Positions 42,079-59,977 of a stretch of DNA of 64,000 nt are shown here, in pieces. Location: positions 186,001 to 250,000 of the forward strand of contig JAHBVS010000001.1 of NCBI GenBank assembly GCA_019637445.1. Direction: 5' to 3'. The notes under the pieces are model-generated. The model searched no databases. It saw only the letters and a program-made list of their open reading frames with translations, and was not told where the DNA came from. Each line of letters starts with the position of its first letter. The first letter of the stretch is position 1. The stretch comes from Gemmatimonadaceae bacterium (lineage in GTDB: Bacteria > Gemmatimonadota > Gemmatimonadetes > Gemmatimonadales > Gemmatimonadaceae). Position numbers and translations under genes: made by a program.

Positions 42079-43071
42079 ATGCCCAAGGCCAAGCTCGCGC
42101 GCGAACGCCTCCAGCAGTTGCTCGACCTCGTCGAGACCCGCCGCCCGCGCATCGCCGTGCTCGGCGACGCGATGCTCGACCTCTACCTGCGGGGCGACGT
42201 CGAGCGCATCAGCCCCGAGGCGCCGGTGCCGATCGTCCGCGTGCGCGACCGCAAGTACGCGTTGGGCGGCGCCGCCAACGTGGCGCAGAACGTCTTGGCC
42301 ATCGGCGCGCGCTGCGAGTTGGTCTCGGTGGTCGGCCGCGACAGCGCCGGTGCGCAGCTGCGCGAGATGCTCACGGAGCGCGGCGCGGAGTCGCGTGGCC
42401 TTGTCGATGGCGACCGCCCCACGACCACCAAGACGCGCGTCGTCGCACGCAGCCAGCAGGTCGTGCGCCTCGACGAAGAAGTGGACGCCGATCTCTCGGG
42501 TGACGAAATCACGCGCGTGCTCGACGCCGTGCGGCGCGCGCTCGAGGCTGCGGACGCGCTGGTCCTCGAGGACTACAACAAGGGCGTGCTCGTGCCGTCC
42601 GTCATCCGCGCCGCGATGGACGCCGCGCGCGAGCGTGACCTGCCAATCGTCGTGGATCCCAAGTTCCGCAACTTCTTCGCCTTTGCGGGCTCGACGATCT
42701 TCAAGCCGAACCGCCGCGAGTTGGAGTCGGCACTCGGTGCGGCCGTCGAGCTCGGCGACCTCGCCGCGCTGCCCAACGTGCTCGAGCGCCTCGACACCCA
42801 ACACCTGCTGCTCACCTTGAGCGAACAGGGCATGGCCCTGCTCGGGCGCGATGGCTCCCTGGAGCGCATTCCCACGACGGCGCGCGAGGTCTTTGACGTG
42901 GTCGGCGCCGGGGACACGGTCACCGCGTATCTCGCGACTATGCTTGCTGTCGGCGCCTCGCCGCTCGAGGCCGCCATCATCGCCAACTATGCCGCGGGCG
43001 TGGAGGTCGGCAAGGCCGGCGCTGCGACCGTGGCGCCGGAGGAAGTCCTTGCTGCCTACGATGGTCACTAG
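42079..43071 (+). CDS. hldE: D-glycero-beta-D-manno-heptose 7-phosphate kinase
   Basis: 330 residues, a PfkB/ribokinase fold with YALGGAANVAQNVLAIGA near the N-terminus and DVVGAGDTVTAYLA near the C-terminus. It covers only the kinase half of HldE (RfaE domain I); the adenylyltransferase half is absent here and may be encoded elsewhere. It makes heptose-1,7-bisphosphate for LPS core or other glycans. No clear Shine-Dalgarno precedes the ATG. The frame is open far upstream, but that part is the antisense of cca and EamA. Confidence 0.9.
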   Translation: MPKAKLARERLQQLLDLVETRRPRIAVLGDAMLDLYLRGDVERISPEAPVPIVRVRDRKYALGGAANVAQNVLAIGARCELVSVVGRDSAGAQLREMLTERGAESRGLVDGDRPTTTKTRVVARSQQVVRLDEEVDADLSGDEITRVLDAVRRALEAADALVLEDYNKGVLVPSVIRAAMDAARERDLPIVVDPKFRNFFAFAGSTIFKPNRRELESALGAAVELGDLAALPNVLERLDTQHLLLTLSEQGMALLGRDGSLERIPTTAREVFDVVGAGDTVTAYLATMLAVGASPLEAAIIANYAAGVEVGKAGAATVAPEEVLAAYDGH

Positions 43072-43651
43072 GGGATCCCTGCTCTGCGCGCTCGCCGGCG
43101 CGCTGCTCCTTCCTGCGTCCGCCAGCGCTCAGCTCGGCTGGGCGCTCGGCGTTCGTTCGGCGAAGAGCGACCCCGCGATTCCCCAGTCGGGCGACCGCCG
43201 CGGCTACGAGGCGCGCGTCACCTACGACCGTGACCTGAACGAGCTTTTCGGCCTGCGCGCGGATTTTGGCTACAACCAGATGCAGTTCCAGCGCGACGAC
43301 TCGGTGCGCTTCCAGGTGTCGGAGAACGGCTTCGAGTTCGCGCTGATGGGGCGGCTGGAGGTGAGAAACGGGGCGCTCACGGGGCTGCACTCGACCTTTG
43401 GGCCGATCGCCTCGTTCCGCTCGGCTTGTGGCTCGTCGGGCCGCTTCGATTCCAATGGCCGCGTGCTCTGCGATACGCAGGAGTCGTATCTCACTGGGTT
43501 CGGCGTGGGCGTTGGGTATCGCTGGATGGCGTTTCTCACCAGCGATGTCACGGTCGAGGCGCGGTACCTCACCAATGTCACGGCGGCGCAGGGGCGTGAC
43601 TTGGTGGCGTTCTCGATTGGGGTGCGGCGGAGGGTTTCGGGATCGCCTTGA
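43061..43651 (+). CDS. Outer-membrane beta-barrel protein, small
   Basis: 196 residues from ATG overlapping the kinase stop by 11 bases. Signal peptide MVTRGSLLCALAGALLLPAS with ASAQ cleavage, then alternating strands ending VAFSIGVRRRVSGSP, like an eight-strand OMP. One Cys pair (SACGSS and RVLCDT) may form a loop disulfide. Function unknown. Confidence 0.75.
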   Translation: MVTRGSLLCALAGALLLPASASAQLGWALGVRSAKSDPAIPQSGDRRGYEARVTYDRDLNELFGLRADFGYNQMQFQRDDSVRFQVSENGFEFALMGRLEVRNGALTGLHSTFGPIASFRSACGSSGRFDSNGRVLCDTQESYLTGFGVGVGYRWMAFLTSDVTVEARYLTNVTAAQGRDLVAFSIGVRRRVSGSP

Positions 43652-43813: not shown

Positions 43814-44359
43814 CTAGCGGATTGCTTGCGCGATCGCGAACCGCGCTGCCAGCAAAGCCGGCGGCGGATTGGCGCCCGCCGGAAGGCCCCGCACCGCCGC
43901 GTTGTACGCGGCGACCGCAGCACGGGCGGTGCTCACGTTCGGGCCGCCGCCAAGGGCGGCGAGCGCGCTCGAGAGCGCCGTGGCCTGCGCCGCGGGTACC
44001 GGTCCCAGTGCGCTGTTCAGCGCGGCCGACTGCGCGGCCGTCGGCTGCCCGCCGAGCACCGCGCCCAACGCCTGCGCGGCCGACTGCGGCAAGTTGAGCA
44101 CACCACCAGCCGGGTTGATGATCGAGACGCCGTCCGATGGGGCACCGGCGAAGCTGACAATCGCCCCGCCCAGGGCCTGCGACCCCGAAGGGCTCAGGGC
44201 GTTTCCACGGCCGGTCGAGGGCACGTAGGGTGCCAGCGCAGCCGTCACGCCACCACCAGCGCCCGTCGGCGAGCCGAAGTCGGACTGCGCCGGGACCAGC
44301 GCCGGCGCCGCCAACACGGCGGCGCCGAGCGCCAGCGAGCGAAGCCCGTGGCGCAGCAT
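43814..44359 (-). CDS. Secreted SDFGSP protein, paralogue A
   Basis: 181 residues. Signal peptide MLRHGLRSLALGAAVLAAPA with cleavage near VPAQ; the mature part starts QSDFGSPTGAGGG. The mature region is Gly/Ala/Pro-rich with INPAGGVLNLPQSAAQALGA and a C-terminal helical part with AVAAYNAAVRG. It is a clear paralogue of the gene just upstream (shared SDFGSP, NPAGG, AYNAA). I recognise no family. It shares one base with the upstream stop (TGATG), so the two should be made together. Confidence 0.75.
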   Translation of the reverse strand: MLRHGLRSLALGAAVLAAPALVPAQSDFGSPTGAGGGVTAALAPYVPSTGRGNALSPSGSQALGGAIVSFAGAPSDGVSIINPAGGVLNLPQSAAQALGAVLGGQPTAAQSAALNSALGPVPAAQATALSSALAALGGGPNVSTARAAVAAYNAAVRGLPAGANPPPALLAARFAIAQAIR

Positions 44360-44883
44360 CAGCGGGACCCGGCCATCGAGGCCAGTGCCGAGCGGATGGC
44401 CAGCATCGCCGGCGTTGGCGTGCCGGATCCGGCCATGATGGCAGCGTTGTACGCGGCCGTGGCGCGAATCAGCGCTACCCCGCTGCGGCCCGAACCCATC
44501 CCCTGCAACATACTGATCAGGCTGCTCGCCGCAGGACCCGTGACGCCAAGCGCACCCTGCACCGAAGCCACCTGTGCGGGAGTCGCGTCTCCGGCCAGCA
44601 TCGCAGCGATACCCTGCGCGACTGCCTGGGGCACGTTCACTGTGCCACCCGCCGGGTTCTCAACGGTCGCGCCGCCCGAACCCGCGTTCGCCAGCGCGCT
44701 GACGGCGGGTGTGGTCGCAATCGCCCCGCCAGAGGCGCCGCGGAGCGGCAGATACGGCGAAATCGAACCACCCAGCCCCGCACCCGCACCCATCGGCGAG
44801 CCAAAGTCAGACTGCGCCAGCACGGCCGTCGAGCTGACGGCCACGAGCGCCACGGCGCCCAGGATCTTCTTGATGGAAGTCAT
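44359..44883 (-). CDS. Secreted SDFGSP protein, paralogue B
   Basis: 174 residues. The ATG at 44883 is preceded by GAGG at an 8-base spacing; an ATG two codons upstream is too close to it. Signal peptide MTSIKKILGAVALVAVSSTA, mature QSDFGSPMGAGAG, then VENPAGGTVNVPQAVAQGI, and ATAAYNAAIMAG near the C-terminus. Same architecture and spacing as paralogue A. No Cys, so no disulfides. Function unknown; perhaps exported and displayed with the barrel protein encoded upstream. Confidence 0.75.
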   Translation of the reverse strand: MTSIKKILGAVALVAVSSTAVLAQSDFGSPMGAGAGLGGSISPYLPLRGASGGAIATTPAVSALANAGSGGATVENPAGGTVNVPQAVAQGIAAMLAGDATPAQVASVQGALGVTGPAASSLISMLQGMGSGRSGVALIRATAAYNAAIMAGSGTPTPAMLAIRSALASMAGSR

Positions 44884-44898
44884 AGTCATTGCCTCAAG

Positions 44899-45693
44899 TT
44901 AGAACTTCCAGGAGATGCCAGCACCGAGGGCCAGACGGCCAGCGTTGCCTGCGGCACCGGTCAGGTCGTTGATCGACGGCGTGATCACGATCGGCATCGT
45001 CGCGAAAGGCGAGAACGACATCGCGGCGTTGAGCTGCGCGCCCGTGTAGTCGAGGATCGCCGAGGAGAAGTAGTTCACGCGGATGGCCGCCGAGGCGAAG
45101 ACGCCGACGCCCGACTTGCCGTCGGCGAAGGACTCGGCCGACTGGAAGCGACCCGTGCCGAGGCCGAAGTTCAGCGTGGCCTGGTTGAAGGTCTCGGCCT
45201 CGCGGACCGGACGCACCGTCGTCGCGGCGAAGTAGATGGACGGGTCCGTGTCGAACTCGTTGCCGTTGAGGTAGATGCCCTCGACGCCGAGGCCAAGGCC
45301 CCAGTTGTTGATCGCCTTGTGCGCCTTCAGGCTGCCGACCATGCGCGAGCCGAAGCCCGAGCGCACCGTCGAGAGCGAGGTCAGCACGGCCTCGATGCCG
45401 AGCAGTTCCTGCGAGTTCATGAAGCCCGCGCCGATGGACAGCGAGCCGTCGGAGTCACCGCCCGAGGCGGTGGAGTTCTGGAAGCCCAAGCCGGCGAACA
45501 CATCGCCCTTGTTCGGGCCGTAGCCGACCGGCGACGAGGCCGCGACGCCCGGCTGGGCGCGCCCCATCGACATCATCGGGGACTCGGCGATCTCCGGCAG
45601 GAGATACACGTCACGGCCCTGGGCCTCGGCCGAAGCCGACAGCGCCAGCGATGCGACGAGCGCAACGAGGGAAACGGACAGACGATGACGCAT
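44899..45693 (-). CDS. Outer-membrane beta-barrel protein of unknown function
   Basis: 264 residues. Signal peptide MRHRLSVSLVALVASLALSA with AEAQ cleavage; the rest is strand-rich with aromatic turns and ends in LALGAGISWKF, the terminal-Phe signal of outer-membrane barrels. GGAG lies 7 bases before the ATG. It leads a three-gene operon with the two SDFGSP paralogues (15-base gap) from a consensus -35 promoter. No family recognised. Confidence 0.75.
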   Translation of the reverse strand: MRHRLSVSLVALVASLALSASAEAQGRDVYLLPEIAESPMMSMGRAQPGVAASSPVGYGPNKGDVFAGLGFQNSTASGGDSDGSLSIGAGFMNSQELLGIEAVLTSLSTVRSGFGSRMVGSLKAHKAINNWGLGLGVEGIYLNGNEFDTDPSIYFAATTVRPVREAETFNQATLNFGLGTGRFQSAESFADGKSGVGVFASAAIRVNYFSSAILDYTGAQLNAAMSFSPFATMPIVITPSINDLTGAAGNAGRLALGAGISWKF

Positions 45694-45780
45694 CGGGAAT
45701 CTCCGACTGGAGGGGTCAGCAATAGAGGCGCGGATACACGTCTCCCGACCTCAGCGGACCGAGGGCGGGGATTGAGGGGA

Positions 45781-45809
45781 AATGTCCCCCTCGGCAACAC
45801 GACTGTCAA
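45781..45809 (-). promoter_or_regulatory. Promoter of the barrel/SDFGSP operon
   Basis: Perfect TTGACA (45809-45804), 17-base spacer, GACATT (45786-45781). The leader is about 80 nt. A GTCACC/GGTGAC hairpin lies just upstream (45823-45838). It is the best -35 box in the window, suggesting strong expression. Confidence 0.65.
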
Positions 45810-45957: not shown

Positions 45958-46030
45958 GGGCCTATAGCTCAGCGGTTAGAGCGGCGGACTCATAATCCGA
46001 AGTGCGCAGGTTCGAATCCTGCTAGGCCCA
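45958..46030 (+). tRNA. tRNA with CAT anticodon (Ile2 or elongator Met)
   Basis: Cloverleaf: acceptor GGGCCTA/TAGGCCC perfect, D arm GCTC/GAGC, anticodon loop CTCATAA (CAT at 45991-45993), T arm GCAGG-TTCGAAT-CCTGC, discriminator A. No CCA is encoded. The D loop AGCGGTTA and GACTCATAATC resemble tRNA-Ile2, whose C34 is converted to lysidine by TilS, but an elongator Met cannot be excluded. It is not initiator Met, since the acceptor 1-72 pair is G-C. Confidence 0.95.
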
Positions 46031-46174: not shown

Positions 46175-46248
46175 GGGCGCGTAGCTCAGCTGGTTAGAGC
46201 GCTGCTTTCACACAGCAGAGGTCGGGGGTTCGAGTCCCTCCGCGCCCA
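46175..46248 (+). tRNA. tRNA-Val (CAC)
   Basis: Acceptor GGGCGCG/CGCGCCC, D arm GCTC/GAGC, anticodon stem CTGCT/AGCAG, loop TTCACAC with CAC at 46209-46211, T arm GGGGG-TTCGAGT-CCCTC, discriminator A. No encoded CCA. 74 nt. Confidence 0.97.
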
Positions 46249-46285: not shown

Positions 46286-47191
46286 CTAGGGTCCGCCGAT
46301 TCGCGTTCCGGGACCTGCTGTAAGTCCCCGCCAGATTCCTGCGGCGCGACCGAAATCGAAGGTCAACACGTACTTCGCCAGCAGCAGCAGCCGCGACGGC
46401 AGGAAGAAAGCCCAGAACGCCAGGCGCTCCGAACCGCGCAGATGCAGTGCCGCGATGCGGCGCCGGTTCCGGTCGCGGTACGCGATCTTCCAGCCCGCCG
46501 GAGGCGGCTCAGGGTCCGGCACCTTGTGCACGAGCCGCGCCTGCGGCACGTGCAGCAGGCGCCATCCCGCCCGCACATAGCGCAGCGACAGTTCCACGTC
46601 CTCGGCGTAGGCCCAGAAGTCCTCGCGGAAGCCTCCACTTTCACGGATCACGTCGCCGCGAATGAGCATCGCGCAACCGCAGAGGCTGGTCACGGCGCGC
46701 GGTGGATCCTCACGCCAAGGCGCGGACTCGATCTGCTCGCCGGCGTGTTCGTGCACCGCTAGGGCGCGCATTGGCGAGAAGCGGCCGCCCGCCCACCAGA
46801 CGCGCCCCGCGGGTGTCGCGTGCAGCATCGTGGGAGACGCGGCAGCGGCCTGCGCATCGCGGTCCAGGGCGTCGTGCAGGAAGGCGAGACAATGCGCGCT
46901 GAGCTCGGCGTCGTCGTTCACGACGAAGACGCGCTCGGCGCCTTGCTCCAGTGCCCACGTGATGCCGCGGGCGTTGCCACCGGCGTAGCCGAGGTTCTCG
47001 CCGGTTTGGAGGAAGTCGTGATCCGGGAATCGCTGGCGGAGCCGCTCGCCGCTGCCGTCTGGGGAGGCGTTGTCCACGATGAGCACGCGCGGACGGGCTG
47101 TGCTGCGCTCGAGCGAGATGATGCACTCGGCGGTGAGGTCCTCGCGGCAGTAGTTGAGGACGATGGCGACTGTGGATCGCGGGGCGTTCAC
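46286..47191 (-). CDS. Glycosyltransferase family 2 (rhamnosyltransferase-like)
   Basis: 301 residues, GT-A fold: VLIVDNASPDGSGERL, NLGYAGGNARGI, DxD-like FVVNDDAEL and FWAYAEDVELSLRYVRAGW. The C-terminal part has one amphipathic membrane-associated region. Probably adds a deoxyhexose to a surface glycan. GTG start overlapping the flippase stop by 4 bases. Confidence 0.9.
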   Translation of the reverse strand: MNAPRSTVAIVLNYCREDLTAECIISLERSTARPRVLIVDNASPDGSGERLRQRFPDHDFLQTGENLGYAGGNARGITWALEQGAERVFVVNDDAELSAHCLAFLHDALDRDAQAAAASPTMLHATPAGRVWWAGGRFSPMRALAVHEHAGEQIESAPWREDPPRAVTSLCGCAMLIRGDVIRESGGFREDFWAYAEDVELSLRYVRAGWRLLHVPQARLVHKVPDPEPPPAGWKIAYRDRNRRRIAALHLRGSERLAFWAFFLPSRLLLLAKYVLTFDFGRAAGIWRGLTAGPGTRIGGP

Positions 47192-48606
47192 GCGGGCGTC
47201 CGAGCCAGCAGCGCCTGGCGCGCCTGATCAATGCTGAGGGCAAGGCCGCGACGCACGGGCGCAATGAGCAGGGGCAGCAGCGCAACGCCGGCGAACCACG
47301 CGGACCAGGCACTCCCTGCAACCGCGACCACCATCAGCGAGCCGAACATGATCTCGACGCCCTGTGGCGCGCCGGTGGCTCCGGCCTCCGCGCGAATCGC
47401 GTGGCGGAATCCGAGCCAGACCACGAGATACGCCGGCAATGCGACGAGCTCCGCGAGGCCGTAGCCCGCCACGCCAATGAGCGGCACCAGCACGACCGCG
47501 ACGCTCGCGAACAACGCCACAAAGGCCACGTGGAAGGCCGTGACGCGGATATTCAGCGCCAAGGCGTACAGCGCCGACGAGTGCAGGTTGAACATCGCGT
47601 TCGCCAGCACTCCCGCGGCCACCAGCGGAAGAATGGGCCCGGTCGCGAGCCACTCCGGTCCGAAGAGCCAACCCACCACGCGAGGACCGACAAGTGCGAG
47701 TGCGAGCAGGGTCGGACCGAGCAGCAGGATCTGCAGCCGCATGCCATCGCGAACGGCAAGGGCCAACCGCTGTCGGTCGTGCTGCAGCTTCGCCAAGCCC
47801 GGCAAGGCGAGCCGCCACACGGCAGCCTTCACGAAGCTCGCCGCCTCAACCAAGCGAATCGCCAGCGCCACGATGGCCACGCCGTCCACGCCGAGCCAGC
47901 GGCCTACGACGAGCGGATTCACGAGATCCTTGAGCTGCCAGGTCCAGATGCTCGAGGCATAGCTGAGCCCGTACCCGAGCGCCTCGCGCGCGACCGTGCG
48001 GTCAAAGGCAAACGCGAAGCGCAGCAGGCTGCGCGCCTGGAGGCGCCACAGCATCCAGGCCTGTTGGCACCACCAGCCGATGACCACCGCCTTCGGCCCC
48101 ACCCCGCGCCAGGCGAGCAGCACGCTCACGGCATACATCAGGAGCATGCCCGTCAGCTCGATCGTCGCCACCTCGCGATATCGCAGTTCGCGCTCGAGCG
48201 CCGCCAACGGAACCATCGCCATCAAGTGCAGCGGCAGGCCGGCCAACAGGCCCAAGGCCAGCTCTCGCACGCCTGCCCCGCCCAACCATCGCTCGACGAA
48301 CGGCAGGAGTAACAGCCCGAGTCCGAATCCGCCGACTCCCGCCATCCCCAACAGGCCGCGCGCAGTAGCGTGCACGCTCAGGATGTCGTCGCCGCTGCGC
48401 CGGACGAGCCAGGCGTTGATGCCCATCTGCGCGACGCCCGAGAGGTACACGAACAGCGCCAGCGCCGCTGCGAATCGCCCGTACCCGCCTGGCCCCAGCA
48501 GCCGCGTCAGCGCAATGGTGCCGCCGAGGCCAATCAGCAGGGTCGCGGCCTGGCGGGCGGCGACGTAGGCGCCGCCGCGCATCGCGGCCTGTCGTAGGGT
48601 GGGCAT
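47188..48606 (-). CDS. Oligosaccharide flippase (Wzx/MATE-like)
   Basis: 472 residues from ATG (MPTLRQAAMRGGAYVAARQA), about 12 membrane segments, e.g. LLIGLGGTIALTRLLGPGGY and MLLMYAVSVLLAW. It matches the polysaccharide synthesis flippase design that moves lipid-linked oligosaccharides across the inner membrane. Overlaps the GT2 gene by 4 bases. Confidence 0.88.
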   Translation of the reverse strand: MPTLRQAAMRGGAYVAARQAATLLIGLGGTIALTRLLGPGGYGRFAAALALFVYLSGVAQMGINAWLVRRSGDDILSVHATARGLLGMAGVGGFGLGLLLLPFVERWLGGAGVRELALGLLAGLPLHLMAMVPLAALERELRYREVATIELTGMLLMYAVSVLLAWRGVGPKAVVIGWWCQQAWMLWRLQARSLLRFAFAFDRTVAREALGYGLSYASSIWTWQLKDLVNPLVVGRWLGVDGVAIVALAIRLVEAASFVKAAVWRLALPGLAKLQHDRQRLALAVRDGMRLQILLLGPTLLALALVGPRVVGWLFGPEWLATGPILPLVAAGVLANAMFNLHSSALYALALNIRVTAFHVAFVALFASVAVVLVPLIGVAGYGLAELVALPAYLVVWLGFRHAIRAEAGATGAPQGVEIMFGSLMVVAVAGSAWSAWFAGVALLPLLIAPVRRGLALSIDQARQALLARTPA

Positions 48607-48678
48607 CGGCCGAAAGAGAACGGGGGGTGTGGAGCGGAACAAGTGGGGCCGGGGGTGCGATGCAGTCGCCCACGACGG

Positions 48679-48684
48679 TATCCT
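48679..48684 (+). promoter_or_regulatory. -10-like box, leaderless start (O-antigen ligase-like)
   Basis: TATCCT ends 7 bases before the ATG at 48692; GAGG is only 2 bases from the start, too close to act as a normal Shine-Dalgarno. Confidence 0.35.
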
Positions 48685-48691
48685 TGAGGCG

Positions 48692-49969
48692 ATGTCGTCC
48701 TCGCTGCTGATCCTGCTCTGGGTCGCCTCACTGGGCGCCGACCGCCTTGACCTGCTCGGCGGTCGCGGTCCGATCCTGCTGCTGCCCTTCCAGGTGCTCA
48801 CCGCGCTCGTGGTGTTCACGGAGTGGCGGCGGCGCCTTCGCGGCGGACGATGGCCGGCGATCAGCGCCGAGGCGTGGACGTTCATCGCCCTCGTGCTCGG
48901 CCTGCTTGCGTTGATGGCGCTGAGCGTGCTGCGCAGTGCCGACGTTGCCGTGTCGCTCGGCCGCGCCGCGCTGCTCGGCGCGACGGCCGTGGGAGTTCCG
49001 CTGGCCGTGTGGGGAATGGCGGACCGCAGCGATATGCTCGCCATCCTCGCCCGCGGCGCTCGATGGGGCCTGGTGGTCGCCGTCGTCTTCAATGCATTGG
49101 CGTTGCTGTCCCTGCTGGGCGCCGCGCCGGGCGAGTTCGTTTTCGGCGCGGCATCAGTGAATGCCGAGCCATCGATGTACGGCGTCATTCCGCGACTCAG
49201 CGGCGCGGCGAGCGACATGAACCGCGGCGGATTGATGGCATTGCTGCACGCCGTGCTCGTGGCGCTGGATCGTCCGGCCAAGCGCGGGCAGTTGGCCTGG
49301 GTGCTGCTGGGCCTCTTCCTCGCGCTTGGTTCGCTGTCGCGCTCGGTCTACCTGGCGGCCGCCCCGGTGGTCTTGCTGCTTCCGCGCTTCATGGAGCAGC
49401 GCTCGCGCGCGGCCTGGCCACGCGCCGCGGCAGTCGTGCTCGCGGCGGTCGCCGTCTTCGCGGCGGTCTTGTTGCAGCCGAACATCCGCGAGAGCGTCGC
49501 GGAGTCGGCGGCGCCGCTGGCGGCGCGCTTCAGCCTGCAGGAAGGCTCGTCGCAAGCGCACGCGTTCCTCTTTTCTCGCGCGGTCAGCGTTGCGACCAGC
49601 GATGTCACGACCACGCTGCTGGGTATCGGCGTCGGCACCAGCTTCCGTGTGCTCGCCGACTTCTTCGCGGGCAACCCGTACGGCAACTTCCACTCCACCT
49701 GGCTCACGCTGTGGGTGGAGAGCGGCATTTTCGCCGCCTTGGTCGCCTTGGCCTTGGTGCTCCTGCCCCTGCGCCGCGCGGGTCCGCTGCGCGGCGTGCT
49801 CCTCGGGCTCGCGCTCTACAACGGCTTCTACAATGGGTTGGGTGAGCCGCTCTTTTGGGTGATGCTCGCGCTCGCGTGGTTGGCGCCGCAGCTGCTCGTG
49901 CCGCCACGCGACGCGTCGCAGCAGCTCGCCGCACAAGCACCCACGACCGCTGGGGCGCCGTCCGTATGA
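48692..49969 (+). CDS. O-antigen ligase/polymerase-like membrane protein
   Basis: 425 residues, about 10-12 membrane segments and a long periplasmic loop (about residues 265-345) with LGIGVGTSFRVLADFFAGNP and NFHSTWLTLWVESGIF, the usual WaaL/Wzy region. It joins glycan repeats or attaches them to a lipid carrier. A second such protein lies at the right edge. Overlaps the lipoprotein start by 4 bases (ATGA). Confidence 0.82.
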   Translation: MSSSLLILLWVASLGADRLDLLGGRGPILLLPFQVLTALVVFTEWRRRLRGGRWPAISAEAWTFIALVLGLLALMALSVLRSADVAVSLGRAALLGATAVGVPLAVWGMADRSDMLAILARGARWGLVVAVVFNALALLSLLGAAPGEFVFGAASVNAEPSMYGVIPRLSGAASDMNRGGLMALLHAVLVALDRPAKRGQLAWVLLGLFLALGSLSRSVYLAAAPVVLLLPRFMEQRSRAAWPRAAAVVLAAVAVFAAVLLQPNIRESVAESAAPLAARFSLQEGSSQAHAFLFSRAVSVATSDVTTTLLGIGVGTSFRVLADFFAGNPYGNFHSTWLTLWVESGIFAALVALALVLLPLRRAGPLRGVLLGLALYNGFYNGLGEPLFWVMLALAWLAPQLLVPPRDASQQLAAQAPTTAGAPSV

Positions 49970-50901
49970 TGCGCGTCAGGGGACTCGCGTTGGGCGTCCT
50001 GCTGCTCGGCGGCCTCGGCAGCCTCGGCTGCGAGCAGTTGCTGACGCGTCCAATCCTCTACGGCACGGTGCGGGTCGAGGCAGTCTCGCGCAGCGGCGCG
50101 GCGCTGCCCGGCGTGCGCGTCGAGCTGTACACCAGCTTCCGACCGATGGGCTACGCCATCACGGATGCGGCGGGTCACGCGGTGTTCTCTCGTGTTCCGC
50201 GCGCCCAGTACGGCGTGGTGATGGGGCTCCCTCCCGAGTACGCGTTGGTCTCAGAGCTCCTTGGCGGCCCACCTGGAAATCGGGTGGATGGCCTCAACGT
50301 CGACGCAGGATCCGATACGACGCTGCGCTTCGTGTTCGCGCGGCGCGGCAATGGAATCGTCGAGGCAACGGTGGTGGACCAGCTCGACGTCCCAATCGCC
50401 GGCGTTACGGTCACGCTGTATCGAAGCAGCGGCGTGCTCGCGAACATCGCAACCGACCTCGCGGGCTTGGCGCGATTCACCGACGTTCCCTTTGGCCAGT
50501 ACGGGGTCCTGGTCGTGCCACCGAGCAGCCTTGGCGTGCCGGGCGCGCCCGCCGTGGTGCGCGATGGGCTCGCCGTGGATGCGGACGTCCCTGCGACGCC
50601 GCGCCTCGTCGTCCAGCGCTGTCTCGGGACGATTCGCCCGCAGGTGCTCGATCAGGACAACCTGCCGGTCGTCGGGATGCCCGTGACGCTCTACCACGGC
50701 GGCGGCGAGATGGCCACAGAGAGCACGGGTGCCGACGGCCGCACGAGCTTCACCGACGTGCCCTGCGGCAACTGGGGCGTCTACGCGAGCGGCATCGCCG
50801 GCTACACGGTCGACTTCGTGCGCAACGTCGGCTTCGTCGACGGGCTCGGCCTCACGAACGCCGCCACGTTGACGCCCACGCTCCGCGCCACGCGTCAGTA
50901 A
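49966..50901 (+). CDS. Lipoprotein with three Ig/CNA-B-like repeats
   Basis: 311 residues (or one fewer: two ATGs in tandem). Signal peptide with lipobox LGSLGC (Cys22). Three homologous ~65-residue repeats follow (about 30-95, 118-180, 205-275), each with a LPGVRVELY / IAGVTVTLY / VVGMPVTLY strand and a F..VP.G.YGV turn, like carboxypeptidase-regulatory or CNA-B folds. A surface-exposed stalk or glycan-binding role is possible. Coupled to the O-antigen ligase-like gene. Confidence 0.75.
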   Translation: MMRVRGLALGVLLLGGLGSLGCEQLLTRPILYGTVRVEAVSRSGAALPGVRVELYTSFRPMGYAITDAAGHAVFSRVPRAQYGVVMGLPPEYALVSELLGGPPGNRVDGLNVDAGSDTTLRFVFARRGNGIVEATVVDQLDVPIAGVTVTLYRSSGVLANIATDLAGLARFTDVPFGQYGVLVVPPSSLGVPGAPAVVRDGLAVDADVPATPRLVVQRCLGTIRPQVLDQDNLPVVGMPVTLYHGGGEMATESTGADGRTSFTDVPCGNWGVYASGIAGYTVDFVRNVGFVDGLGLTNAATLTPTLRATRQ

Positions 50902-50947
50902 CGCGCCCCAGTAACGCGCCCCAGTGGCGCGCCCCAGTAGCGCGCCT
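50896..50947. repeat. 13-bp tandem repeat (4 copies) between convergent genes
   Basis: Units CAGTAACGCGCCC twice, then CAGTGGCGCGCCC and CAGTAGCGCGCCT. The first unit contains the lipoprotein stop codon (TAA), and the array ends at the stop of the convergent Wzz-like gene. Confidence 0.9.
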
Positions 50948-52455
50948 CAGCTCGCGGAGAGTCTCCGCGCCGCCTGCGCCGCGGCCACAGCGCCGCCACC
51001 TGCCATCGCCAGCACCAAGCCGAGCACGAGGTTCACCAGCGGGCGCGGAAAGTACGGGTCATCGCGATGCGGCACCGTCGGTGCGTCCACGATGCGCACC
51101 TCGTCGAGCCGCAGCGCATCCTGCAGTTCGGTCTGGCGCAGCTGCTTCTGCAGCAACAGGTATCCCTCGTTGAGCACGCGCACCTCGCGAGCGAGCCGCA
51201 GGTAGCGCATCTCCGTCTCGGGGAACTCCGCTAGGCGCGCGTCGATCGCGGCAATGGCCGCCGTCGTGGGCGCAATCTGCTCGTCGAGGCTTTCGAGATA
51301 CTGCCGGCCGAGGCGCTGCAGTTGGCGCTCGAGCTCCTCGATGCGCGCCGAGAGCTGCCGCACATCCGCGTTGTCGTCGCTGCGCACGAGGCGCAGCTCG
51401 CTGCGGTCGTTCTCCAGCGTCGTCAGCGTGAGCAGCAGGTCTTGGATCGCGCGGTTGGTGATCAGTGACGGAAAGGTCGCGAGCTGCCGATACGCCTCGG
51501 AGCGAGTGGTCCCCGCCCTGCCCTCCACCAGCGCCAACAAGCGCGCCAGGGCCGCGCGTTCCACCTCAAGCGCGTCGAGCGTGCCGCGCAGCGCAGCGTA
51601 GCGCTGTACCTCCGCTGCGCCCTGCTCGCTCGGGGCCACCAGCCCGGAGGATTCCTGATAGCGGCGCTGCGCTTCCTCGGCCTGGGCCAGCCGAACGCGC
51701 TGGTCCTCGACCTGGCGTCGCAGCTCGGCGGCCGTCGTGCCGGCATCCCCACTCGCTTCGCGACGCGTGAAGCTCAGGTACTCGGCGAGGATCCGTTCCA
51801 ACACGCGCGCGGCGAGCTCAGGGTCCGGATCCTCGTAGCTGAGCGTGATCAGCTGGGCGCCCGCGCTCTGCCGACGGACCGCCAGCCGTTCCAGGAGCTC
51901 CCGCCGCGCGACGAAACGCGGCACGACGTCCAACTCGATGTCGTCAGGCAGACCCGCCGCGCCCGGTGTCGCCAGCTGCACGCGAGTGAAGCCGAGCTCC
52001 AAGTTGCCGCCGCCGGCAACCTGCGCCGGCAGCGTCAGGCCGTCGGAAAGATCCTCTCCCGTGAGCGCCCACGAGCTGCCGTCCGCGCGCAGGCGAACGC
52101 TGCCCTCCACATCCCCTGCGCTACTGCCATCGACGACGCTGGCAGTGAACACGAGCGAGCGCGCCACGCGCGGCTCCTCCACGCGCACCGTCAGGCCCAG
52201 CGAATCGATCACGGCGTCCACCACGCGACGGCTGCGCAGCACACCGATCTGCGTCTCGAGTTCGTCGTCGCCGAGTCCGAGCAGCGGTGCCCCGGGCATC
52301 GAGGCGACAGCGTCGGCGAGCCCGGACATCCCGCGGTTCGACTCCACCTGCAGCAGCGCCTCGCTGCGATAGCGCGGCGTGACCATCAGGGTCCAGGCGA
52401 GCACGAGGGCGAACAGTGCCCCGCCCATCGCGAGGGGTGCGAGGTACCGTCTCAT
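50947..52455 (-). CDS. Wzz/GNVR chain-length regulator, no kinase
   Basis: 502 residues. An N-terminal membrane helix (MRRYLAPLAMGGALFALVLA), a Wzz domain, a long periplasmic coiled coil (about 200-430), and a GNVR-like tail before a second membrane helix (VNLVLGLVLAMAGGGAVAAA). The usual C-terminal tyrosine kinase is absent. It sets polysaccharide chain length. Its ATG overlaps the Wzi-like stop by 4 bases. Confidence 0.85.
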   Translation of the reverse strand: MRRYLAPLAMGGALFALVLAWTLMVTPRYRSEALLQVESNRGMSGLADAVASMPGAPLLGLGDDELETQIGVLRSRRVVDAVIDSLGLTVRVEEPRVARSLVFTASVVDGSSAGDVEGSVRLRADGSSWALTGEDLSDGLTLPAQVAGGGNLELGFTRVQLATPGAAGLPDDIELDVVPRFVARRELLERLAVRRQSAGAQLITLSYEDPDPELAARVLERILAEYLSFTRREASGDAGTTAAELRRQVEDQRVRLAQAEEAQRRYQESSGLVAPSEQGAAEVQRYAALRGTLDALEVERAALARLLALVEGRAGTTRSEAYRQLATFPSLITNRAIQDLLLTLTTLENDRSELRLVRSDDNADVRQLSARIEELERQLQRLGRQYLESLDEQIAPTTAAIAAIDARLAEFPETEMRYLRLAREVRVLNEGYLLLQKQLRQTELQDALRLDEVRIVDAPTVPHRDDPYFPRPLVNLVLGLVLAMAGGGAVAAAQAARRLSAS

Positions 52456-54134
52456 CGCTGGACGCGTGGAAGTCGAGGCGTGAGCGTCAGGGTCAGGCTC
52501 CGGTTCAAGAGATCAACGCCTTCGGTGCGGCCGTCGGGCGTACCGAACTCGTAGGCCTGATAAAGATGGTTGAGGCGAACGCCTTCCGTGAACTCGACCA
52601 GCGCCTCCCAGGTCCCGATGGCCATCCCGCCACGCAGCGAGGCCCAGAGCTGCAGGTCCTCGCGCTTGGGCGGCAACGGGTTGAGGAAGCGGTAGTTCGC
52701 ATCGCGGCGCCAGCGGCCCAGCGAGAGACCGGCGCGCCAGTCGGGCGCGCGATAGTCCGCCGCGAAGTACTGGCTCGACGCCGCGGGCCCAATGCTGGGG
52801 CCGAGCGTCTGCCCTTGGTGCGTCCAGCCGTGGGGAACGGCCGGACTGCTGAAGCTGGTGCCGATGGGTCGAACGCGCGTGCTGGGGCTGGGCTCCAGGT
52901 AGCTGAACTCCGTTTGGAAGTGCAGCATCCCGCCCCAACGCGGCTGGGCCCACTGCGCGCCGACCGCGTAGCCCTGCATGTGCCCCGGCTGCTCGAGAAA
53001 GTCGCGCAGGCTGGCGACTTGTTCGAAGCGCGCCCATTCGACGTAGGCCTCGACGCCCTGCTCCGGAAAGCGCCAGCGCGAGAACATCGCGAAGATCTGG
53101 TCGCGCGCCTTCGCCGAGTCGGCGCTGCGCGACCAGGGGCGCCCCACGTCGCGCCAGACGTCGAGCATCGTCGCGAGGCCGGGGGCGCGGCGCGCCATCA
53201 CGCCGCGGGTCGCCCCGAGAGTCGGCCAGGGGCCTTCCCACACGGGGCGCCAGGTGACACCGAGCGCGTTGAGCGAGCGCGCGTCGTTGCGCGAATCGAA
53301 GTCGAAGAACTCGGACTCCTCGAGCCGCCCGAGGATCCACTGGTATTCAAAGGCCCCGATGCGGGTCTCGAACGGGCGCGCGGACTCCACGAAGATCTGC
53401 GCGAAGGCCGGTGCGTTCGAGGAGAGCAACATCGCGTTGCGGACACCCGGACCCCACCAGCGGTTCTCGTGCCCCACTCCCACGCGCACACCCGCGCCGA
53501 CATCCACGGCCACGCGTCCCTGGAACGTGAGCGCCCCACGCGCCTCGTCGCCGAATCGCTGGGGATAATCCATTGATGTCGGCAGCGGATAGAACGGATT
53601 CGCCCACACGTTCCGAACAGGCGGGCTTGGCTGCGGATACGGGATGGTCTGGAACGCCAGGTTGGCCTCGTAGACCAGCTGAGGCACCAGCACCGCCGTC
53701 ACGCGCCCGCGCCGCAGGGCCACGCCCGCACTCGCCAGCATGTTGCGGCCGCGTCCGGCGCGCAGCGGGCCATCATTGAAGCCCCAGGCGTGCGCGGAGT
53801 TGTAGCCGACCATCAACTCGGGCGTGAAGGCGGCGATGCCGTCTCGCTCTCCGAGCCGATCAGTCATCCGCGTGCCGACGCTGCGGAGCAGGGTGCCCGC
53901 GTCGTCGTCGAGTCCAAGCAGCTCGCGCAGGCGAAGCGTCGTTTCGGTCTCCGAGCCCGGCAGCGGGAGCGCGGAGACGCCGAGTAGGCCGCGCGAGGTC
54001 GAGTCTCGCGTCTGCGCCTGCGTTTGTGCGCGCAGCGGCGCAGCACCGGCGACAGCGACGGTCCACGCCGCAGCGGCACACACAAGCCAATGGGGTGGCC
54101 GGGGAGATCGCACGGTGGGTAACCTTACGCGCAT
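52452..54134 (-). CDS. Wzi-like capsule assembly barrel, copy 1
   Basis: 560 residues from ATG (MRVRLPTVRSPRPPHWLVCA); a GTG at 54113 would trim 7 residues. Signal peptide with PLRAQ cleavage, then beta-barrel with WWGPGVRNAMLLSSNAPAF and FEYQWILGRLEES, family hallmarks of capsule assembly Wzi. It anchors capsule at the outer membrane. Divergent from and homologous to copy 2; the two ATGs overlap. Confidence 0.82.
   Translation of the reverse strand: MRVRLPTVRSPRPPHWLVCAAAAWTVAVAGAAPLRAQTQAQTRDSTSRGLLGVSALPLPGSETETTLRLRELLGLDDDAGTLLRSVGTRMTDRLGERDGIAAFTPELMVGYNSAHAWGFNDGPLRAGRGRNMLASAGVALRRGRVTAVLVPQLVYEANLAFQTIPYPQPSPPVRNVWANPFYPLPTSMDYPQRFGDEARGALTFQGRVAVDVGAGVRVGVGHENRWWGPGVRNAMLLSSNAPAFAQIFVESARPFETRIGAFEYQWILGRLEESEFFDFDSRNDARSLNALGVTWRPVWEGPWPTLGATRGVMARRAPGLATMLDVWRDVGRPWSRSADSAKARDQIFAMFSRWRFPEQGVEAYVEWARFEQVASLRDFLEQPGHMQGYAVGAQWAQPRWGGMLHFQTEFSYLEPSPSTRVRPIGTSFSSPAVPHGWTHQGQTLGPSIGPAASSQYFAADYRAPDWRAGLSLGRWRRDANYRFLNPLPPKREDLQLWASLRGGMAIGTWEALVEFTEGVRLNHLYQAYEFGTPDGRTEGVDLLNRSLTLTLTPRLPRVQR
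54120..54125 (+). promoter_or_regulatory. -10-like box, leaderless start (Wzi copy 2)
   Basis: TAACCT ends 7 bases before the ATG at 54133. It lies inside the signal-peptide codons of the divergent copy 1. Confidence 0.35.
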
Positions 54135-55827
54135 GGCGCGAGGTGAATCAAGCGGTCGGGGAGCGATTGCACGCGCAGCGCCGCGCGCGCTGTTGGCCGT
54201 GCTCGCGATCTCCGTTCCGGTCGTCTCGGCCACGGCGCAGCAGCAGGCACGCGAGTCGGCGGGCGCAGCGCAGCAGGAGCCGGCGCGCCTCGAGTTGGGC
54301 GGTGCCATCCTCGCCGCCGGAGACCAGGCCTCGTACCTGCGGACCCTCGCACTGCTCGATTCCACGCGAGAAATCCCGTGGAGCATCCAACCCTTCACGG
54401 CGGCGCTCGAGCGTCGACTCGCCGCGCCGGCAGGTGATGGGACCACGAGTCCTTGGGCAGGCCGGTTCACGGGGAGCAGCGCGACGATCCAACTCCTCCG
54501 CCCCGACGTCCTCGCCATCCACAACAGTGCACTTCCCGTCGGCGCCAACGACGGCGTGCTCTGGGCGGGCCGCGGCAGCACGATTGCCGCGCAAGCCGGC
54601 GTCCGCGCGCAATGGGGGCGCGTACGCCTTCAGCTCGCCCCCATCATCTTCCGCGCCGCCAACGCTGACTTCGACCTGCTGCCCAACGGTCAAGCGGATC
54701 CTTGGCTTTTCCGCGATCCGCGCCGACCCACGCAGATCGACCTCCCCCAGCGTTTCGGCAGCGACCCGTACACGCGCGTCGACCTCGGCGACAGTTTCAT
54801 TGACGTCGAGGCCTTCGGCGTCGCCGCCGGGTTCAGCACGGCGCGCCTGAGCTGGGGCCCGGCCCGCGAATACCCGTTGGTGCAGAGCGTGAACGCCGGC
54901 GGATTCCCGCACATCTTCATCGGCACCGCGGCACCCGTGAACGTCGGCATCGGGACGCTGCACGTCCGGCACATCGCCGGCCGGATGGAACAGAGCGACT
55001 GGTCGCCCATCCAAACCGGCCCCCTGCACCGCTTCCACGTCGGCTTCGTCGCGAGCTTCGCGCCGAGCTTCGTGCCCGGACTAGAGGTCGGTGGGATGCG
55101 CGTGATGAACGTGCGCTGGCATGAGGGCACCCCGAGTCTCTCGCAACTCACGCGTCCGTTCCAGGGTGTCATCAACGACCAGATCGGCGACATCAACAAG
55201 AACGACGAAAACCAGTTCGCCTCGCTGTTCCTGCGCTTCTCGCCACGCGCCTCGGGCTTCGAGGCCTACGCCGAGTGGGCGCGCGAGGACTTCAGCGGCA
55301 ACTGGCGCTGGCTCGCGATGCAGCCCGACGACCTCGGGGGCCTCACGCTCGGCGTGGCGCACGCCTTCCGTTCGGATGATGGCAACCTGCATACGTTGCG
55401 CGCCGAGCTGGTGACGGCGGAGATCGGACACCACGAGCGCCTTGGGCGCACGCTGAACCAGCCCATCCCGCTGTACTGGCACGTCCGCACGCGACAGGGA
55501 ATGACCAATCGCGGGCAGATCCTTGGCGCCGCGGCGGCGTACGGCGGTGCCGGGGCGACCTTGGCTTACGACCGCTACACCGCGAACGGGCGTCTCACCA
55601 TCGCACTCGAGCGCTTCCTGATCGGCGACTGGAGCCAGACACTCGGCCCGATCGGCGGTGTCCCACAGCCTGAGGTGCGTTACGGTGCGCGTGCAGAACT
55701 ACTGCGATTCCGCGGCGACGCCGACTGGTCGCTGCAGCTCGGACCCAGCTGGACGCTGAACCACCTGCTGGTGCCGGGCCACGATGTGTTCAACCTGAAC
55801 GCGCAGCTGCGCTGGCGCGGCTGGTAG
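54133..55827 (+). CDS. Wzi-like capsule assembly barrel, copy 2
   Basis: 564 residues from ATG (MARGESSGRGAIARAAPRAL). Signal peptide (VVSATAQ cleavage) and barrel with LSWGPAREYPLVQSVNAGGF and LHVRHIAGRMEQSDW, aligning with WGPG and IL.R.E segments of copy 1. The C-terminus ends in a barrel strand (NLNAQLRWRGW). The start overlaps the divergent copy 1 start by 2 bases. The frame is open upstream only as antisense of copy 1. Confidence 0.82.
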   Translation: MARGESSGRGAIARAAPRALLAVLAISVPVVSATAQQQARESAGAAQQEPARLELGGAILAAGDQASYLRTLALLDSTREIPWSIQPFTAALERRLAAPAGDGTTSPWAGRFTGSSATIQLLRPDVLAIHNSALPVGANDGVLWAGRGSTIAAQAGVRAQWGRVRLQLAPIIFRAANADFDLLPNGQADPWLFRDPRRPTQIDLPQRFGSDPYTRVDLGDSFIDVEAFGVAAGFSTARLSWGPAREYPLVQSVNAGGFPHIFIGTAAPVNVGIGTLHVRHIAGRMEQSDWSPIQTGPLHRFHVGFVASFAPSFVPGLEVGGMRVMNVRWHEGTPSLSQLTRPFQGVINDQIGDINKNDENQFASLFLRFSPRASGFEAYAEWAREDFSGNWRWLAMQPDDLGGLTLGVAHAFRSDDGNLHTLRAELVTAEIGHHERLGRTLNQPIPLYWHVRTRQGMTNRGQILGAAAAYGGAGATLAYDRYTANGRLTIALERFLIGDWSQTLGPIGGVPQPEVRYGARAELLRFRGDADWSLQLGPSWTLNHLLVPGHDVFNLNAQLRWRGW

Positions 55828-55836
55828 CGACGTCGG

Positions 55837-56442
55837 CTAGCGGGCGACGATCAAGGTCACCACGATGCCGGCGAGCCCGACGATCGCCGAGACCATGAAC
55901 GCGGAGTTCCGGTCGAACCATCCGCGCCGGTCCACGAAGACCTCGTCCCCGCTGCGCACGTCCGCGCGCACGAGGTCCGACTCCACCGACACGCGCTCGG
56001 CGAGCACTGCCCCGTCACGACGCACGCGCACGCGGCGCAAGTCGCCGTCGGCTGAGGCGCCGCCCGCCATCGCGATGGCACCGGCGATTGTGGTGTTCGG
56101 ATCCGCCAGCAGGATGCCCGGCTGGCGCACGAAACCGAGCACGAACACGCGGCGCAGCGGGGTGATGCGCAGGTCCGGGGCGCGTAGCTCGCGCGCGTAG
56201 GCGGCGCCGAGCGAATCGCGCACGCTCGACCAGGGACGACCGGTCACGCTGCGCCGGCCAAGCAGCGGCAGGACGACGGATCCGTCGACCTCGATGGGAA
56301 AGTCGCCGCGTAGCAGCGAGTCCCGCCAATGGAAGAGCTGCAACACATCGCCCGGCCGCAGCGCGAACTCCGGCGACGCGGCCGCCTGGGCCGGGAGTGC
56401 CGGCCCAATGGCGAACAGGGCGAGGAGTAGCAAGCGACGCAT
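55837..56442 (-). CDS. Polysaccharide export protein, short (Wza/SLBB)
   Basis: 201 residues. Signal peptide MRRLLLLALFAIGPALPAQA, then Poly_export with LRPGDVLQLFHW and one SLBB-like domain with VFVLGFVRQPGILLADPNTT, and a C-terminal membrane helix (VSAIVGLAGIVVTLIVAR). Wza is normally a lipoprotein, but no lipobox is seen here. TATCTT ends 9 bases before the ATG. Confidence 0.85.
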   Translation of the reverse strand: MRRLLLLALFAIGPALPAQAAASPEFALRPGDVLQLFHWRDSLLRGDFPIEVDGSVVLPLLGRRSVTGRPWSSVRDSLGAAYARELRAPDLRITPLRRVFVLGFVRQPGILLADPNTTIAGAIAMAGGASADGDLRRVRVRRDGAVLAERVSVESDLVRADVRSGDEVFVDRRGWFDRNSAFMVSAIVGLAGIVVTLIVAR

Positions 56443-56451
56443 CACGCGCGG

Positions 56452-56457
56452 AAGATA
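56452..56457 (-). promoter_or_regulatory. -10-like box, short leader (short SLBB)
   Basis: TATCTT ends 9 bases before the ATG at 56442. Confidence 0.35.
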
Positions 56458-56470
56458 GCGTTCGACCGCG

Positions 56471-57637
56471 TCAGAGGGGGAGGCCGCTGGCGGCTGCCGC
56501 GCGAGCACGCCATCCCTCGAGCGACCAGCCGTTCGCGACGCGCGCGATACCGGCGCGCCCAAGGCGATCGACCAGCGCGTTGTCGGACATCAGGGCAGAC
56601 AGCGGCTGTTGCCAGGCGTCTACCTCGCGCGGCAGCAGAAAGCCCGTTTCGCCATCGACTACCGTCTCGGCGAAGCCGCCCTCCCGCACGGCGATCACCG
56701 GCGTTCCGCAGGCCATCGCTTCCGGCGCCGAGAGGCCGAAGGGCTCGCGGTACGCCGCACAGAGCACCGCGCGCGACTGGCGATACAGCGCGACCAAGTC
56801 GTCAGACGACACACGGTGATGAATCCGAAGTGACACACCCTGCTCCGCCGCCAGGGTCTCGAGGCGAACCCGGTCCGCGTGGTGCGCCTCGTCGCAGGCG
56901 ATGTCGAGCGCTGGGCGCTGCGATGCCGGCAGCCGACCCAGCGCGCGAATGGCGAGATCGTGCCCCTTGAGCGGAGAGAGGCGGCCCACGGACAGCACAC
57001 TGGCGCTGCGGGCCGCGACCGACGCGGGAGAGAAGCGACGGGTGTCGATACCCGGCGCCAGAACGGTGGCAGACACGCCATAGGCGCGGCGCAGCCATTC
57101 AGCGGTGAAGGCGGAACTCGTCACGACGCGCCCCGCGGCACGCACTGCCGCGGCATCGCCGCGGCGAATGCGCAGGTGCCGCGGCAGCCGCAGCAACTTT
57201 CGCAAAGGTGCGAACGAGGCGCCCGGCTCGACCGCTGGCCAGTCGAACGACGCCACAGGCGCGAGCTGTTCCAGCGCCCGCACCCGCAGCGGCTCGTGCG
57301 TGTGCAGCACCGTCGGGCGGGTCAGCATCGTGAGGATCGGCGGGTGGCCAAACAGCCGGCACTTCTCCACCCACACGGCGTCTGGCGCCCAGGCCTCGAT
57401 GCGCCGCGCCATCTCGTGTGTCGCAGCGTCGTAGCGTCGCAGTGCCCCATTTCCCTCGAGGTCGAGCGGCAGCACTTCGCGGTGGCCCTCAAGTGGCCAG
57501 GGAGCGAACGCCTGTTCCGCCGAGCCGAAGGTGAATAGCCCGACCTCGTGGCCGGCATCCGCAAGGATGCGCGCGCTTTGCGCGACCAGCGCCAGAGCGC
57601 CGCCGGACGGCAGGTGATGGAAGAGCGCGATCCTCAC
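56471..57637 (-). CDS. Glycosyltransferase family 4
   Basis: 388 residues from GTG overlapping the GT2 stop (GTGA). VRIALFHHLPSGGALALVAQ at the N-terminus, and the donor site AAYREPFGLSAPEAMACGTPVIA near the C-terminus. GT-B retaining enzyme with unknown substrate. Paired with the GT2 gene upstream. Confidence 0.88.
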   Translation of the reverse strand: MRIALFHHLPSGGALALVAQSARILADAGHEVGLFTFGSAEQAFAPWPLEGHREVLPLDLEGNGALRRYDAATHEMARRIEAWAPDAVWVEKCRLFGHPPILTMLTRPTVLHTHEPLRVRALEQLAPVASFDWPAVEPGASFAPLRKLLRLPRHLRIRRGDAAAVRAAGRVVTSSAFTAEWLRRAYGVSATVLAPGIDTRRFSPASVAARSASVLSVGRLSPLKGHDLAIRALGRLPASQRPALDIACDEAHHADRVRLETLAAEQGVSLRIHHRVSSDDLVALYRQSRAVLCAAYREPFGLSAPEAMACGTPVIAVREGGFAETVVDGETGFLLPREVDAWQQPLSALMSDNALVDRLGRAGIARVANGWSLEGWRARAAAASGLPL

Positions 57638-58716
57638 GGGGGCGTCCCCGCATCGGCGTGGCGGCCGCGCCATAGCGCGCGTAGGTGGCGATAGACCCCG
57701 ACAGGGACCACTGTTGCCAGGACCAACTGAAGCCTGCGAAACGCCCGGTGCAGCGTTGACGTCACCCACGGTGCCGGCCGCCACACGAGTGCCAGGCCTA
57801 GGGCACGCACGCGTTGGCCAGCCAGGATCGCGGCCCAAACTCCGAATTCGCCGGCGTTCGCGCGCAGTGCGCGCCGCAGTCCGCTGATATCACGCAAAGC
57901 TTTGGAGGCCAAGGACTCGGCGCTCCGGCCAAGCTCTGCATAGAGAGAGGCGCGCGCCTGCGCGATGGGCGCCGAAAACTCGTCAGCCCCCGTCCAGCGG
58001 TTAGCGCCGTGGACCCGCAGCCTTACGTGGCGCCCACCCACCGGCACCACCCGACGCGCGTGGGAGGCGATGCAGAGCTGCAGCCAGCCATCGGCGGCAA
58101 TGCGGTACTGCGCGGGGACCGGGCCCGCCGTCTCGCCCTCTACGAGGACTGCGAGAAGAGATCGGCGAACGCAGAGACCTGAAGTGGGCGGCATCCACGA
58201 CACACGCCCTGCTCCAAGCGCGTCCGACTCCCTCAGCAGGGCTTCGAGCATAGTCCAATCAAGAGGGCTCGGATCCTGCCCCAGGGGCCTGCCAGCAGCG
58301 TCCACCGTCAGCACGCCCGAGAAGCCGGCGTCGCAGTCGGGGCTCGACTCTAGCGCCGACAGGGCCGCATCGAGGTACTCAGGCCCCCACTCGTCATCGC
58401 CGTCGAGGAATGCCAGCCAGGTGCCTCGAGCCCCGGCAATCCCCCGATTCAGGGCCGCAGCCTGCCCGCCGTTCGGCTGTCGGATGACCTGGATAGCGCT
58501 GGCAAATCCGGCGAGTATCTCAGGGGTGCGATCGGTCGACCCATCGTCCACGACGATGACCTCCCCCTGCCCCTCCCGGACCGCCCGCTGGGCCAGCGCG
58601 GAGGCCACGGCGGCCGCCACGAACGGACCCTGCTCGAAGGTGTCGATGATGACGGAGACTGTGATCGGCTCGGACACTTGTAGTCGAATTGGTCGGCCAC
58701 GATTGCTGTGGGCCAC
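57634..58716 (-). CDS. Glycosyltransferase family 2
   Basis: 360 residues from GTG (AHSNRGRPIRLQVSEPITVS); an alternative GTG lies 13 codons downstream. GT-A: VSVIIDTFEQGPFV, VIVVDDGSTDRTPEIL, FLDGDDEWGPEYL (DxD), then a C-terminal basic region. TATTAA ends 6 bases before the GTG, suggesting a leaderless mRNA. Divergent from the phosphotransferase. Confidence 0.9.
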   Translation of the reverse strand: MAHSNRGRPIRLQVSEPITVSVIIDTFEQGPFVAAAVASALAQRAVREGQGEVIVVDDGSTDRTPEILAGFASAIQVIRQPNGGQAAALNRGIAGARGTWLAFLDGDDEWGPEYLDAALSALESSPDCDAGFSGVLTVDAAGRPLGQDPSPLDWTMLEALLRESDALGAGRVSWMPPTSGLCVRRSLLAVLVEGETAGPVPAQYRIAADGWLQLCIASHARRVVPVGGRHVRLRVHGANRWTGADEFSAPIAQARASLYAELGRSAESLASKALRDISGLRRALRANAGEFGVWAAILAGQRVRALGLALVWRPAPWVTSTLHRAFRRLQLVLATVVPVGVYRHLRALWRGRHADAGTPP

Positions 58717-58722
58717 ATCACA

Positions 58723-58728
58723 TTAATA
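58723..58728 (-). promoter_or_regulatory. -10-like box, leaderless start (GT2)
   Basis: TATTAA ends 6 bases before the GTG at 58716. Confidence 0.4.
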
Positions 58729-58743
58729 ACCGCGCGTTGCACA

Positions 58744-58772
58744 TTGTCGGAACGTGGTCCCGGCGGTAGGTT
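58744..58772 (+). promoter_or_regulatory. Promoter of glycosylphosphotransferase
   Basis: TTGTCG (58744-58749), 17-base spacer, TAGGTT (58767-58772). The leader is about 34 nt. It lies back to back with the GT2 start. Confidence 0.55.
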
Positions 58773-58812
58773 CTCCCTCACCCATAGGCAGTCCCACCCC
58801 TCACTTGCCCCG

Positions 58813-59886: not shown

Positions 59887-59915
59887 CGTAACCCTTGGTG
59901 GGAGTTAGGTTTCGG

Positions 59916-59947
59916 GCGCGGTCTCGGGACCGCGCTCGCTTTGTTTC
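59916..59947 (+). terminator. Terminator after glycosylphosphotransferase
   Basis: Perfect 8-bp stem GCGCGGTC/GACCGCGC (59916-59923 with 59928-59935), TCGG tetraloop, then TCGCTTTGTTT. Confidence 0.8.
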
Positions 59948-59977
59948 TGGACCTTTTCTGCGACGCGACAAGCAACG

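Follow-up and report, generated by a model that had tools for sequence, protein, structure and literature searches.

A barrel gene encoding an outer-membrane protein and two genes for small exported proteins of the SDF family, here called partners, lie in tandem within the window (the whole stretch of DNA analyzed, 64,000 nucleotides) (Table 1). The barrel stop codon is separated by 9 bases from the start of the first partner gene, and the two partner genes overlap in a TGATG stop/start sequence that would couple their translation. Because of this spacing, the three genes almost certainly form one operon. Their reading frames have GC3 values of 0.80 to 0.92 and dN/dS ratios against orthologues of about 0.2 to 0.6 (with dS approaching saturation for some of the pairs), and the GC3 values together with dN below dS indicate that all three are real genes. 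An operon composed of a barrel and two coupled, exported paralogues, as described in an earlier note made from the same DNA, is borne out; that note left unstated that it lies on the minus strand.

Table 1. Features of the operon, of its surroundings in the window, and of related loci (positions without a locus prefix are those of the window)
Feature	Position	Strand	Remark
Barrel gene	44899..45693	-	264 aa outer-membrane protein
First SDF partner gene	44359..44889	-	176 aa
Second SDF partner gene	43814..44359	-	181 aa
TGATG stop/start overlap between the two partner genes	44357..44361	-	Sequence; putative coupled translation
Ribosome-binding site GGAGA, inside CGGAGA	45700..45704	-	Alignment; CGGAGA invariant across six orthologues
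Promoter TTGACA-N17-GACATT	45781..45809	-	Footprinting, six orthologous barrel genes
Second outer-membrane barrel gene	43061-43651	+	PF13505, E 1e-7; convergent with the operon
tRNA-Met (CAT)	45958-46030	+	Just upstream of the operon, opposite strand
tRNA-Val (CAC)	46175-46248	+	Just upstream of the operon, opposite strand
Polysaccharide locus	46286-63329		Glycosyltransferase-, flippase-, and O-antigen-ligase-like genes
Wzz-like protein	50947-52455		In the polysaccharide locus
SLBB/Poly_export protein	59978-62470		In the polysaccharide locus
Partner homologues carrying an additional C-terminal domain	L127:498-1673, L128:829-2538, L100:2022-3170		
Barrel-like protein with a similar-looking C-terminal end	L110:946-2406		
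Two tandem barrel genes of the same family, without partner	L106:1717-3098		Genome G258

Footprinting of the region 5′ of six orthologous barrel genes identified TTGACA-N17-GA(A/C)NTT as invariant in the alignment, with diverged 17-base spacers; the invariant upstream stretch reads CTTGACA, and CGGAGA is invariant before the start codon. The window contains a single copy of the full pattern, compared with 0.24 expected when one mismatch is allowed, and a seventh orthologue (L021) lacks TTGAC. A scan with a generic sigma-70 consensus had returned no promoter upstream of the operon, which it missed because the −10 element (GACATT) is weak, and this plain consensus result was superseded by the footprinting. 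The comparison among orthologues supports TTGACA-N17-GACATT as a real promoter with a weak, non-consensus −10 element. This bears out the TTGACA promoter of the earlier description, though not the adjective "strong".

The barrel protein consists of a signal peptide (residues ∼1 to 24), a conserved pre-barrel segment (∼43 to 64), and a predicted 12-strand barrel (64 to 263), which supports the original reading of the 264-residue product as an outer-membrane barrel. Structure predictions for the barrel and the partner took only sequences from the window and related loci. The barrel model, built from five sequences and of modest confidence (pLDDT 63.6), places twelve strands from residue 64 onward and leaves the N-terminal part unstructured, including most of the ∼40 residues between the signal peptide and the first strand. 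Residues 43 to 64, considered as a FapF-type plug, are highly conserved, yet they lie in or beside this low-confidence part of the model. The closest folds to the model are the FapF and COG4313 channels. Nothing follows the barrel in the window protein, which has no Pfam match, including to the OmpA domain (PF00691), which holds peptidoglycan in known proteins. Orthologues in G009, G013, G087, and G093 carry this domain C-terminal to the barrel (E values of 1e-14 to 1e-24), with TSP3 repeats also present in the G013 protein, and the tail of a barrel-OmpA type gene lies at a contig edge in G004. The partner and an OmpA-fused barrel coexist at loci L021, L022, L053, and L055, so the idea that the partner substitutes for a lost OmpA domain was rejected. 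Two barrel genes of the same family also occur in tandem in G258.

The two partners share 44% identity over 95 residues (BLASTP E value, 2e-18), a likeness that is not due to chance and identifies them as homologues. Both begin with QSDFGSP right after a signal-peptide-like segment, with cleavage sites assigned by eye (A-x-A before Q), and both carry NPAGG-(TVNV/VLNL)-PQ in the core and AYNAA near the C-terminal end, exactly the three shared elements first noticed. Within the genus set, only the D and the two glycines of the SDFGSP stretch are invariant, and family-wide, the mature start reads approximately Q-x-G-N-(G/Q)-S-D-(V/F)-(T/S)-G, followed by a Gly/Pro-rich stretch. Judged from these alignments, SDFGSP is the local spelling of a looser family start, N-(G/Q)-S-D-x-(T/S)-G; constraint on the mature N terminus is confirmed, but SDFGSP as a fixed motif is not. 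Paralogues of the same genome agree more closely in their first 22 to 24 residues than in the helical domain, with identities of 13/22 in the tail versus 36/88 in the helices for the window pair and 19/24 versus 33/77 for the pair in G005, although the glycine-rich, low-complexity composition may inflate part of this tail conservation. The first partner copy seems to have diverged faster than the second, since its helices match the single partner of G008 at 35/88 positions, compared with 58/91 for the second copy.

In the model of the mature partner (pLDDT 71.5), a disordered, Gly/Pro-rich tail of 34 residues opens with the tag and is followed by a short helix, the NPAGG hairpin, and five helices, with AYNAA located in the helical bundle. 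A Foldseek search of solved structures with this model gave no clear fold match (best E value, 2.9), and a profile search of solved structures returned nothing credible. The BteA membrane-localization bundle was considered as the partner fold and dropped, its VIA-align Z of 6.7 being within the noise for helical models. Partner homologues L127 and L128 (family f5) and L100 (family f6) carry an extra C-terminal domain of ∼130 residues, which was Pfam-negative in the two tested (L127 and L100), and a similar-looking C-terminal end is found on a barrel-like protein (L110).

Searches with the single proteins and with all homologues placed neither the barrel nor the two partners in a Pfam or NCBIfam family, and the hits to a characterized family that the earlier note named as grounds against its proposal did not appear. 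Sub-threshold matches, such as those of two partner homologues to Pilus_CpaD, were taken as chance, and none of the 34 barrel homologues matched a COG4313/Phenol_MetA_deg-like Pfam model at an E value of 0.05. The fold of the barrel is known; the partner family is new to the libraries searched. Single-sequence searches recovered the partner only within the Gemmatimonadaceae genus to which the window belongs and found the barrel in 7 of its 17 genomes, while profile searches recovered the barrel in 29 and the partner in 15 of the 179 family genomes. A contig scan of genomes gave nothing with the single barrel sequence; the barrel alignment led to four metagenome-assembled genomes deposited as Gemmatimonadota, Gemmatimonadetes, or Gemmatimonadaceae. 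There were no matches among plasmids, and a search of one literature library found no paper on the module or on Gemmatimonadota outer-membrane proteins.

To count how often the two genes are paired, both profiles were broadened and the DNA adjoining every barrel was inspected. A partner lies immediately downstream on the same strand at 29 of the 34 barrel loci in the window's family and at all five loci in family f6, with a further borderline case at L062 (start NMSDVTG). In family f5, a partner is present at L127 and L128, and most barrels have none; barrels without a partner also include L054, L056, L071, and L076. Every strong partner match adjoins a barrel or sits at a contig end, and matches to SDF at L107 to L109 were dropped as mainly signal peptides or unrelated proteins. 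Most genomes have one partner per barrel, and G025, G166, and G369 each contain two complete barrel-partner pairs. The earlier note had read the matching architecture as a sign of duplication and paired function and had made conservation of the pairing in relatives its own test; the barrel-partner pairing is conserved at these loci, but two partners per barrel is not the rule.

A direct connection between the two proteins is seen at L102 (G325, family f5), where one reading frame encodes a signal peptide, a short leader, the partner helical domain (HMM E value, 2.7e-11), and the barrel (E value, 9e-33) before it runs off the contig end. The partner domain sits between the signal peptide and the first strand, whereas in L126 (G383) this leader is joined to the barrel with no inserted domain. 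Insertion is the simplest reading of this single case at a contig edge, because the sequence on either side of the domain matches that of an unfused barrel. Distances among barrels correlate with those among partners (r of 0.67 versus 0.00 ± 0.04 for permuted labels), a value that includes the contribution of species relatedness. The fusion, the adjacency, and the co-duplication make it very likely that the barrel and the partner cooperate directly. By comparison of the sequences, the two constitute an outer-membrane module that is conserved in Gemmatimonadota: the gene for an exported SDF-family protein comes immediately after the barrel gene, in the same orientation, and the window operon has this arrangement.

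We favor, at about even chances, a reading in which the partner is a detached accessory domain that is tethered by its tail to an outer-membrane channel or anchor on the periplasmic side and stabilizes or gates the channel. After Sec export, the partner would stay tethered to the barrel via its disordered N-terminal tail, with the contact made by the first tail residues (SDFGSP here and GNGSDVTG elsewhere), and the helical bundle would sit at the periplasmic mouth. The complex may be part of an outer-membrane channel or anchor because some orthologous barrels carry an OmpA domain, and the position occupied in the L102 fusion is where an accessory or plug domain of a channel would be expected. 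Several points weigh against this reading. The barrel model is of modest confidence, the fusion is a single case, and glycine-rich composition may explain part of the tail conservation. Some barrels have no partner, which means that the partner is not always needed, and a passenger destined for export can likewise occupy the region before a 12-strand barrel, as autotransporters show.

The main alternative, which we consider unlikely, is that the barrel is a dedicated exporter, FapF-like or a split autotransporter, and the partner is its cargo, addressed by the N-terminal tag and ending on the cell surface. It would account for FapF and, at lower scores, 12-strand autotransporter domains as the folds nearest the barrel model, for a partner domain in the passenger position in L102, and for the one or two small exported partners per barrel that share a conserved start. 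Fold likeness among 12-strand barrels, however, shows no function, and the partner is predicted to be a compact helical bundle rather than an unfolded repeat protein. Orthologous barrels carry a C-terminal OmpA domain, and we know of no FapF- or autotransporter-type exporter that does. Judged from the open reading frames, none of fapA to fapE, including the gene for the amyloid FapC, is recognizable around the window operon, which is flanked by tRNAs, a glycosyltransferase-like gene, and another barrel. Nothing found here speaks for the secreted fibre or surface layer proposed in the earlier note, a weaker form of the exporter reading: the model shows the partner as a single helical domain of small size, and in L102 the partner is fused into the barrel protein. 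Rather unlikely as well is a system for delivery to, or tethering at, the outer membrane that is specific to this lineage; its 12-strand barrel would recognize small exported helical proteins by an address tag at the extreme mature N terminus and could be shared by several tagged paralogues.

Also improbable is a scenario in which the barrel acts as a general porin or an OmpA-like structural protein and has nothing but the operon in common with the partner; the partner would then work on its own in the periplasm, for example, as an envelope-stress factor or an assembly factor for abundant barrels. Such independence would suit the mostly partnerless barrels of family f5 and the OmpA-fused paralogues without partner (L054 and L056), but it fits poorly with the L102 fusion, the co-duplication, and the side-by-side placement of the genes at almost every locus of two families. 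L054 (in G093) and L056 (in G087) are second barrel genes of their genomes, and by eye, a dipeptidase-like gene comes next in both.

The surroundings of the operon include a second outer-membrane barrel gene, which by eye adjoins an HldE-like kinase gene, and the order kinase-barrel-partner is also found in L017 and L019. A module for exopolysaccharide or O-antigen export, with the barrel as outer-membrane conduit and the partner as periplasmic adaptor, is quite improbable: flippase- and glycosyltransferase-like genes and Wzz/GNVR and SLBB/Poly_export proteins lie within 17 kb in the window, and a polysaccharide-export-like gene was recognized by eye nearby in L022 and L126, but in other genera the pair lies among RuvB/YebC-like housekeeping genes (L129 and L132; by eye), and membership in polysaccharide loci was rejected because the neighborhood is not conserved.

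Soil and fresh water commonly harbor Gemmatimonadota. Three families belonging to one class of this phylum share the two-gene envelope module, for which neither Pfam nor NCBIfam has a family. The module offers a test case for a barrel whose accessory domain is known in separate and in fused form, and for an N-terminal tag that paralogues retain as their other regions diverge.

Several characterized systems share parts of this architecture. Type V autotransporters (NalP, EstA, and EspP) have a 12-strand barrel that aligns with the window barrel model at Z values of 13 to 15, and their passenger and barrel form one polypeptide, a state approached only by L102 with its N-terminal domain before the barrel; the window partner, in contrast, has a gene and a signal peptide of its own, and the orthologues carry C-terminal OmpA domains. 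Proteins of the OmpA/OprF type have the combination of a barrel and PF00691 in common with the orthologues of G009, G013, G087, and G093, but OmpA has 8 strands, compared with the 12 predicted for the window barrel. The COG4313 channel of Pseudomonas putida (4rl8) is the best Foldseek match of the barrel model (E value, 7.7e-5; Z of 16.6), with 13 to 14% identity and no partner named in the title of the entry. FapF, the Pseudomonas functional amyloid transporter, shares the 12-strand fold with the predicted barrel (VIA-align Z of 17.7; root mean square deviation of 2.9 over 197 residues) at ∼9% identity, and like the L102 fusion it has additional helical structure N-terminal to the barrel. It differs in its N-terminal periplasmic trimeric coiled coil, a region that the window barrel lacks, and in that the window partner is a separate helical gene product and the orthologues carry OmpA fusions. 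The N terminus of FapF lies in the periplasm, where the helical part controls a plug that precedes strand 1 (PMC5557850), and by analogy this helical part offers a precedent for the periplasmic accessory role proposed for the partner.
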